Positions 25,706-44,284 of a DNA stretch of 64,000 nt are shown in pieces. Position 1 is the stretch's first letter; every line of letters begins with the position of its first letter. Location: contig JALTVI010000068.1 in assembly GCA_027049035.1 (NCBI GenBank), positions 1-64,000 on the forward strand, written 5' to 3'. Below the pieces are notes generated by a model that made no database searches, was not told the origin of the DNA, and was given only the letters and a program-made list of their open reading frames with translations. The translations under genes and the position numbers were made by a program. The DNA comes from Sulfurovum sp. (GTDB taxonomy: Bacteria; Campylobacterota; Campylobacteria; Campylobacterales; Sulfurovaceae).

Positions 25706-25735
25706 TTGACATTGACTAAACTTTTCTGATATAAT
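25706..25735 (+). promoter_or_regulatory. Consensus sigma70-type promoter upstream of cbpA-hspR
   Basis: TTGACA (25706-25711), 18 nt spacer, TATAAT (25730-25735); predicts a ~170 nt leader before the cbpA ATG. Confidence 0.7.
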
Positions 25736-25781
25736 ACGTCTAAAATTAAAGTTACATTAAGAAGTTCTTTAGCTCCTGAGG

Positions 25782-25867
25782 TATTTTATAACAACACTCC
25801 TGCACCTTGCAAACGGCAGAGCCGCCCTTCGGGTTGGGTGCAAGGTTTGTCGCATTGTCATAAAATA
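25782..25867 (+). ncRNA. Candidate structured 5'-leader RNA motif, copy A (cbpA-hspR leader)
   Basis: Outer stem tattttat(25782-25789)/ataaaata(25860-25867), stem accttgca(25804-25811)/tgcaaggt(25839-25846), hairpins cggc-aga-gccg and ccc-ttc-ggg. Core shared with 44106-44188 (-). Confidence 0.55.
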
Positions 25868-25912
25868 TTGTCTGTTGGAGTATTGATCTGATAAGTAGGA
25901 AGAGGTTTAGCC

Positions 25913-26800
25913 ATGTCAAAAAGTCTATATGAAACATTGGGCGTCAGCGAAAATGCGAGTGCTGACGAGATAAAAAAAGCGTATCGAAAACTCGCAAGAA
26001 AATATCATCCGGATATCAACAAAGACCCGGAGGCGCAGGATAAATTCAAGGAGATCAACGCAGCGTACGAAGTGCTGAGTGATCCTGAGAAGAAAGCGCA
26101 GTACGATCAGTTTGGCGACCAGATGTTCGGCGGTCAGAATTTCCATGACTTTGCACGCGGTCAGGGTGCAGAAGTTGACCTTGAAGAGATTCTGCGTCAA
26201 ATGTTCGGCGGAGGCGGAGGTGCCGGCGGCTTTGGCGGATTCGGCGGAGGAAGTGCCCGAGGCGGCTTCGGCGGTAGTGGCGGTTTCGGCGGCGGATACC
26301 AGGCGCCGGATCTGGATATACACGCACGTATCACCGTACCGTTCCTTGTGGCTGTAAATGGCGGGAAACACCATATCTCCATCAATGGAGAGAGTTTCGA
26401 TATCAAGATCCCTGCAGGTATCAAAAACGGTGAAACCCTGCGTGTCAGAGGAAAAGGGAAAAAGGCAGGCGGCCAGAGCGGCGACCTGCTTATCAAGGTA
26501 GAGGTGGCAGATTCACCGGAGTATGAGCGAAAAGGAAACGATCTGTACAAAACCTTCGATGTGCCGCTGAAAACGGCACTCTTTGGCGGTAAGGTACAGG
26601 TACAGACACCGGAGAAAGAGGTCTCTTTGAAAGTACCCAAAAACACCAAGAATGGACAGAAGTTCAGACTTAAAGGCAAAGGGGTACCGGACAGAAAAAC
26701 AGCGTTGAGAGGCGATCTCTACCTCATAGCCAACATTGTTCTGCCGGATGTCGATTCGCTCGATCCTGAGCTTAGAAAAATGTGTGAAGAGAAACTGTAA
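25913..26800 (+). CDS. cbpA: DnaJ-family co-chaperone (CbpA-like)
   Basis: J domain with HPD ([45 protein letters not shown]), Gly/Phe-rich linker, C-terminal domain without zinc finger. Confidence 0.92.
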
Positions 26801-26812
26801 AAGGAGTTGATG

Positions 26813-27184
26813 ATGCATAGTTATGATGAGCCCGTTTATCTGATCTCGGTGGTAGCATCCATGCTCGACATTCACCCACAGACGCTCAGGCAGTATGAGC
26901 GTGAGGGGCTGGTAGAACCCTCCAGAACACAGGGGCGTATGCGTCTCTACTCTCAGCGTGATATTGACCGGATGAAGCTCATTTTGCGTCTGACACGCCA
27001 GCTTGGGGTGAACCTTGCCGGTGTCGACATCATTCTGCAGCTCAAAGAGCAGATCAACCAGATGCAAGAGGAGATCGATCAACTGCGTGAAGAGCTGAGC
27101 AAGGTTAACCGTAACGGCTCTGTGCACAGTTCCAAGGCACTTGTAGCAAAAAACAGTTATGACATCATCATTTTTGAAGAGTAG
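26813..27184 (+). CDS. hspR: MerR-family heat shock regulator HspR
   Basis: YLISVVASMLDIHPQTLRQYEREGLVEPSRTQGRMRLYSQRDIDRMKLILRLTRQLGVNLAGVDIIL, adjacent to cbpA. Confidence 0.9.
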   Translation: MHSYDEPVYLISVVASMLDIHPQTLRQYEREGLVEPSRTQGRMRLYSQRDIDRMKLILRLTRQLGVNLAGVDIILQLKEQINQMQEEIDQLREELSKVNRNGSVHSSKALVAKNSYDIIIFEE

Positions 27185-44051: not shown

Positions 44052-44105
44052 GGTACTCCTTATTTAGACTCTCACTTAATACATCTGAACAAAATCTGCT
44101 GTAAA

Positions 44106-44188
44106 GGTTTCATTCGATGGCGACAAAGGAGCACTCAACCCATAGGGCGGCTTGCCGTTTGCGACTGCCAGAGCTATCGAATGAAACC
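44106..44188 (-). ncRNA. Candidate structured 5'-leader RNA motif, copy B (pta-ackA leader)
   Basis: On the minus strand: GGTTTCATTCGAT...GCAAACGGCAAGCCGCCCTATGGGTTGAGTGCTCCTTTGTCGCC...ATCGAATGAAACC; 13 bp perfect outer stem; core nearly identical to 25809-25853 (+). Confidence 0.6.
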
Positions 44189-44284
44189 GTAGATGGCTTT
44201 TAAAAGATATCGATTTATTCTATCATAAAAGTACAGAAAGCAAAAGGTATAATGTCACACAACATCCACATTTTCAGGACATCC

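Follow-up and report, generated by a model that had tools for sequence, protein, structure and literature searches.

A structured repeat in the cbpA leader of Sulfurovum is probably an old insertion of a Sulfurovaceae-specific mobile family

Introduction

In Sulfurovum sp. (assembly GCA_027049035.1), the leader of the cbpA-hspR operon contains a sequence that can fold into a branched RNA-like structure. The window analyzed here is the whole 64,000-nt stretch at positions 1 to 64,000 of contig JALTVI010000068.1, and a second copy of the sequence lies in it before pta. An original prediction took the two copies, copy A at cbpA and copy B at pta, for a cis-regulatory leader RNA that may coordinate chaperone and acetate-overflow genes. 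What is this element, which of its strands folds, and does it regulate cbpA? Judging from comparison of sequences, copy A would be, with a probability of about 0.7, an insertion of a Sulfurovaceae-specific mobile structured repeat (about 90-130 nt) that is old and was inherited vertically.

Results

Features of the cbpA leader

The sequence and coordinates given for copy A in the original prediction were correct, and the promoter upstream of it is present and perfect (Table 1). The arms named for the outer stem (P1), the inner stem (P2) and the two hairpins (P3 and P4) pair as claimed, and the core indeed recurs on the minus strand upstream of pta. A third copy is located on the same contig, 211 nt past the window end (C47:64211-64299). 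No terminal inverted repeats were seen at copy A beyond a remnant of 4-5 bp. The GCTCC outer stem around it is retained in six of the eight cbpA copies described below, resembles the outer arms TATTCTNACTCCGG / CCGGAGTAATA of the copies in another genome (G085), and is possibly what is left of an outer inverted repeat. The cbpA promoter region (TTGATTGACATTGACTAAACTTTTTTGATATAAT) is strongly conserved at the cbpA loci of related Sulfurovum and perhaps includes an HspR operator.

Table 1. Features at the cbpA and pta loci (positions in the window)
Feature	Position	Strand	Remarks
cbpA promoter, TTGACA-N18-TATAAT	25706..25735	+	12 of 12 consensus matches; similar promoter before cbpA in relatives with and without the element
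Short outer stem, left arm GCTCC	25772..25776		right arm GGAG at 25877-25880
Element copy A, type 2	25780..25870	-	matched by covariance models R1 and R2; folding strand probably minus, antisense to cbpA
P1 outer stem, 5' arm (plus strand)	25781..25795		pairs with 25854-25868; covariation over 49 copies
Conserved ACTCCTGCA	25796..25804		on the minus strand, bulged side of the kink-turn-like internal loop (...GCAGGAGU...)
P2 inner stem, 5' arm	25804..25811		pairs with 25839-25846; compensatory variants in alignment A4
Three-way-junction tip, P3 and P4	25814..25833		P3 CGGC-AGA-GCCG at 25814-25824; P4 CCC-TTC-GGG at 25825-25833
Conserved TTTGTCGC	25846..25853		on the minus strand, other side of the kink-turn-like loop (GCGACAAA); columns nearly invariant
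P1 outer stem, 3' arm (plus strand)	25854..25868		same covariation, 49 copies
cbpA, DnaJ-like co-chaperone	25913..26800	+	Pfam DnaJ and DnaJ_C
hspR-like MerR-family regulator	26807..27184	+	Pfam MerR_1, E=2.5e-17; HspR name from operon context
Copy B before pta, type 1	44103..44190	+	outer stem GGTTTCATTCGAT/ATCGAATGAAACC; displayed match on minus, folding strand probably plus

A repeat family with uneven copy number

The recurrence of the copy A element in its genome is far beyond chance. A blastn search with the 103-nt region found about 16-17 further copies (E-values from 3e-12 to 1.5e-6), and covariance model R1, built from 18 copies (alignment A1), detected about 31 copies in this genome (G000), 28 in one congener (G002) and none in most congeners. 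With a second model, R2, the element was present in 32 of 78 congeners. The distribution in the family was patchy: R2 found the element in 52 of 175 genomes, spread over 8 of 11 genera, very unevenly and with up to 24 copies (G219). In a pattern scan of GTDB, 37 of the 38 matches were in Sulfurovum MAG contigs and one was in an epsilonproteobacterial symbiont. Strong matches in a phylum-wide sample were confined to Sulfurovaceae, and those weak matches outside the family that were inspected resembled the element in the tip only. Carriage by phages or plasmids was dropped, because pattern and blastn searches of phage records, viral contigs and plasmids found no copy. Rfam 15 gave no match above the gathering threshold at this locus or at 20 loci with copies, its only match in the window being a tRNA elsewhere. 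The original prediction had no confident match to a known riboswitch consensus.

Matches scattered without gene context had been named there as the sign of a mobile repeat, and such a scatter was found for the family as a whole. The proposed coordination of cbpA and pta is unsupported: only one of the 151 copies examined, the window's own, precedes pta, and this copy is of the mobile, orientation-random class. Specific co-regulation of the two genes was thus rejected.

Two classes of copies and their sites

The division of copies into two types is operational: a copy counts as type 1 if it agrees with the type 1 stem at 9 or more of 13 bases. Type 1 comprises 86 copies with the common stem GGTTTCACTCGAT, the pta copy included. 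Their orientations (27 L+R+, 24 L-R-, 24 L-R+ and 8 L+R-) and the 21:21 division of distinct tandem sites by orientation are random. Outer inverted repeats of about 14 bp (GARYYCTCTGAAWA) were found at both ends of 23 of the 86 (at most four mismatches per end), and the units that have both are mostly 127-131 bp in length. In one genome (G230) the outer repeat occurs 27+21 times, against 4+3 times for a reversed control (48 versus 7). The flanking 4-mers are identical at all four positions in 6 of the 23 units, a number that about 2% of 2000 shuffles reach and that is no more than suggestive of target-site duplication. We call the family mobile because copy numbers are patchy, orientation is random and terminal repeats are partly present.

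An autonomous parent was sought in G230 and was not found: no autonomous element or transposase was recognised, and at 20 G230 sites no second inverted repeat at an IS-like distance together with a transposase was recognised. Mobilisation of the REP/RAYT kind was rejected, since copy number was uncorrelated with Y1 transposases; a PF01797 (Y1) match is absent in G031, G258, G259, G264 and G267, each of which has at least five copies. Insertion of the core into pre-existing palindromes was likewise rejected, as no empty TTTCACTCGAT hairpins were seen in nine genomes and element-free cbpA leaders have no such stem. At one G230 site (G230:C36:38446-38576, L287), another palindromic repeat (GTCATTCCGGGCTTGACCCGGAATCC...AGGATGACG) lies within the type 1 outer repeat, and the aaat flanks match; here, palindromic repeats are nested in one carrier.

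Type 2 comprises 65 copies, the cbpA copy included, which have locus-specific, fully paired outer stems. In 61 of the 63 copies with a called right-hand gene, this gene is on the displayed strand, and distinct tandem sites divide 19:2; these gene calls come from a simple codon-score script applied mostly to draft MAGs, and the species are not independent. Many type 2 copies lie 0-21 nt past a stop codon and 25-60 nt before the next start. Copies occupy the same site at cbpA in eight species, in the hsp20-hsp20 spacer in seven, at gltX in six, at batD in five, and at others. Pfam matches support the neighbouring genes as DnaJ, MerR, Hsp20, proteasome-type HslV, RpoZ, NapD and pseudouridine synthase. 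Heat-shock loci among the retained sites (cbpA in eight cases, the hsp20 spacer in seven and hslV-hslU in one) appear to be in excess, an excess that was spotted post hoc and is uncorrected for this choice. In the hsp20-hsp20 spacer, the copy sits exactly between the two genes of all seven species with six different outer stems (L076, L096, L107, L081, L091, L184 and L185). Before a pseudouridine synthase gene in G265:C285 (L210), a tandem pair 96 bp apart also has differing outer stems. Amplified lineages in other genera carry further, lineage-specific outer stems, so that the type 2 copies of Sulfurovum may be remnants of older mobile lineages.

At cbpA, the element is inherited. It lies in the transcribed leader, between the conserved promoter and the start codon, in eight related species, which belong to those whose cbpA protein is closest; in species further away, the spacer is short and has no such stem. 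A species with 92% cbpA identity (G264) is without the element at cbpA, and in two carriers (G270 and G035) the P1 arms at this position are entirely different, which indicates either fast turnover of the stem or repeated insertion. The two copies in the window would fit an old insertion fixed by descent at cbpA and a younger one at pta.

Conserved fold

The fold supported by an alignment of 49 copies (A3) consists of P1 (about 15 bp), an internal loop that is conserved, P2, and the hairpins P3 and P4 joined in a three-way junction. At almost all P1 positions, each of the four Watson-Crick pairs is found among these copies, and the covariation score was 0.588, against 0.150 for shuffled and 0.06-0.10 for slid controls. 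The loop (ACTC...; TTTGTCGC), GCAAAC and the tip contain the conserved bases. The conserved core, consisting of P1, the kink-turn-like loop, P2 and the three-way-junction tip, is probably under selection for pairing. The covariation and the Rfam searches support this part of the original prediction, a structured and evolutionarily constrained element that has no Rfam family.

Variant forms were also observed. In a variant of 160-170 nt, about 78 nt of extra repeated sequence replaces P3 (L025, L026 and L063-L066 in the same genome; weak matches in G002). The tip alone, on a plain long stem that has no kink-turn-like loop, occurs in ychF leaders (L069, L233 and L225) and in a napD leader (L231) of other species, and also in other families (L032, L034 and L039); possibly, these forms are an older or independent use of the tip.

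Strand of the fold and the cbpA mRNA

The minus strand of copy A has a predicted minimum free energy of -36.4 kcal/mol (z=-5.82) and the plus strand one of -27.7 (z=-2.04), whereas the strands of copy B fold about equally (z -3.97 and -4.33). The minus fold was the more stable one in 72 of 86 and 46 of 61 copies. Mismatches in P1 give the same asymmetry. An A.C mismatch on one strand is a G.U wobble on the other, and A.C outnumbered G.U in type 2 (36:9), type 1 (14:7) and other genera (8:4), pooled 58:20 (p=2e-5); the excess thus favours the strand complementary to the displayed one. On the minus strand only, pairs 81-17 (48 of 48 copies) and 80-18 (47 of 49) are standard, and a kink-turn signature at the sequence level (CGAC/GAG) is present in 43 of 49 copies, on the complement only. 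On the minus strand, P4 is a C(GNA)G triloop and P2 has a tandem GA/GA in 21 of the 29 short-P2 copies, which exchanges with Watson-Crick GT/AC. Mismatches in P3 and P4 gave no strand signal, and the wobbles at the cbpA orthologues, taken alone, do not favour the minus strand. Mutation bias did not simply explain why A.C predominates: at fourfold sites, the coding strand has C>G and T>A, a comparison that codon choice confounds. Most likely, the folding strand is the complement of the mRNA, a preference equally expected from folding of single-stranded DNA. Promoters antisense at copy A were limited to weak matches, and an L7Ae-family protein (PF01248) is absent from the genome.

Taken whole, the cbpA leader mRNA does not exceed shuffled sequence in stability (z=+0.5). 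The Shine-Dalgarno region (25870 to 25913) lies outside the element, which speaks against an RNA thermometer; in the minimum free energy structure of the leader, the only partner of the Shine-Dalgarno sequence is a stretch further upstream that is not part of the element, and the centroid structure lacks this pairing. Of the proposed cis-regulatory RNA, a structured element in the cbpA leader of eight species stands, whereas a riboswitch or thermometer in the cbpA mRNA is weakened because the constrained fold is apparently on the complement and because of the z-score of the leader. A cis-regulatory role in the cbpA mRNA is possible but unsupported.

Discussion

In this study, we found that the structured element in the cbpA leader is one of many dispersed copies, and its origin can be pictured as follows. 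The repeat family would amplify in bursts, with an outer-stem sequence particular to each lineage. Younger copies with outer inverted repeats would land in either direction, as expected of a MITE moved in trans by some transposase. Old copies would persist in spacers and leaders only where the weaker-folding complement enters the mRNA; insertions of the opposite orientation, which put the strong fold into the transcript, are likely counter-selected, and this would yield the orientation bias; ERIC is a precedent for transcribed repeats whose effects depend on orientation (PMC3049150). Thus, at cbpA the insertion would have added a moderately structured 90-nt spacer between the promoter and the ribosome-binding site. 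Any effect on cbpA would be indirect, through mRNA stability or processing, and not through ligand or temperature sensing.

It is also conceivable, if unlikely, that the repeat is wholly neutral and that its perfect outer stems are kept by template switching between the arms during replication. Perfect hairpins can arise and persist through template switching, which can also mimic compensatory change by copying changes from arm to arm (PMC8794818). Consistent with this, P1 has been fully replaced yet remains paired at orthologous sites, namely in the hsp20 spacer and at cbpA in G270 and G035. However, template switching explains the paired stems and not the unpaired core: the kink-turn-like loop, the AAAC and the tip are conserved where P1 was replaced. 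The residual mismatches are strand-biased, and P2 and the exchange of tandem GA with GT-AC covary too. The persistence of core and pairing at fixed sites over several species, not expected of a dead insertion, argues for some function in place.

What such a function would be can be pictured in several ways, none of which we consider probable. Old copies might be template-strand elements under selection, acting as antisense RNA or extruded single-stranded DNA, which were recruited from the mobile repeat and kept in one orientation, especially at heat-shock genes; we hold this broad form to be rather unlikely. A function opposite the mRNA that is specific to each locus, as antisense RNA or a DNA template-strand hairpin, seems to us improbable. 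It would account for the strand asymmetry, the kink-turn signature, the near-absolute orientation and the retention at the same sites, but antisense promoter matches at copy A are weak, the genome has no L7Ae-family match, and we know of no precedent for antisense structured elements occurring in such numbers between the genes of operons. Quite doubtful, too, is a true cis-regulatory leader RNA (protein-binding, thermometer or riboswitch), sense in cbpA and other mRNAs, from which the mobile copies derive. The type 2 element is transcribed in the sense direction from the cbpA promoter, has one orientation, often lies 25-60 nt before a start, and recurs at heat-shock loci and at the same sites in up to eight species with compensatory changes. 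Against this, the conserved non-Watson-Crick positions and the wobbles fit the other strand, the cbpA leader shows neither unusual stability nor a Shine-Dalgarno sequence within the element nor an Rfam match, and the downstream genes are functionally mixed (gltX, batD, rpoZ, rbfA, gpmI, ffh, napD and fabG). An old insertion of a mobile repeat remains our preferred reading of copy A.

A supposed riboswitch of two genes has turned out to be a family-wide mobile structured repeat that is missing from the RNA library searched. Its stem evolves freely with pairing kept, and this provides a good natural test of whether compensatory selection or template switching causes "covariation". The case also warns that covariation alone cannot tell which strand is the RNA; here the evidence favours the strand opposite the mRNA. 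If old copies have been recruited at heat-shock operons, this would be a case of a repeat becoming part of an operon.

Among known systems, integron attC sites also fold on the strand complementary to the genes and have a fixed orientation downstream of an ORF. In attC the arrangement is the reverse of that found here, where conservation is central and variation lies at the ends, and no consensus end boxes were seen in the aligned copies. Kink-turn RNAs (PMC4316175, PMC4382518) share the 3-nt bulge followed by tandem G.A/A.G, which was found here on the minus strand of 43 of 49 copies. By a published rule, a Watson-Crick 3b.3n pair predicts no kink-turn folding in ions alone (PMC4382518); the pair here is Watson-Crick, and folding without protein is thus not predicted. 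The C-stem is also very short, and no L7Ae-family protein was found in the genome. Extragenic palindromes (REP) have been reported in a Sulfurovum isolate (PMC3733652). However, REP elements, the palindromes of the REP/RAYT and GTAG/CGTC repeat systems, are 20-40 bp, whereas the present element has a three-way junction and a length of 90-130 nt, and copy-rich genomes without a Y1 transposase match occur. Bacterial MITEs resemble the type 1 units of about 130 bp, with outer inverted repeats at both ends, intergenic location and possible 4-bp target duplications, but here an autonomous parent was not found in the search of G230, most copies are without recognisable outer repeats, and the interior is a conserved RNA-like fold. 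BOX/RUP/SPRITE, ERIC and Correia (NEMIS) elements are likewise short, non-coding, dispersed, palindromic, patchy and often co-transcribed, and orientation-dependent effects of transcribed repeats have been reported for ERIC (reviewed in PMC3049150). The present element differs from them in an outer stem that covaries fully and is specific to a locus or lineage, in a core that is conserved across eight genera, and in old copies that nearly all have one orientation.
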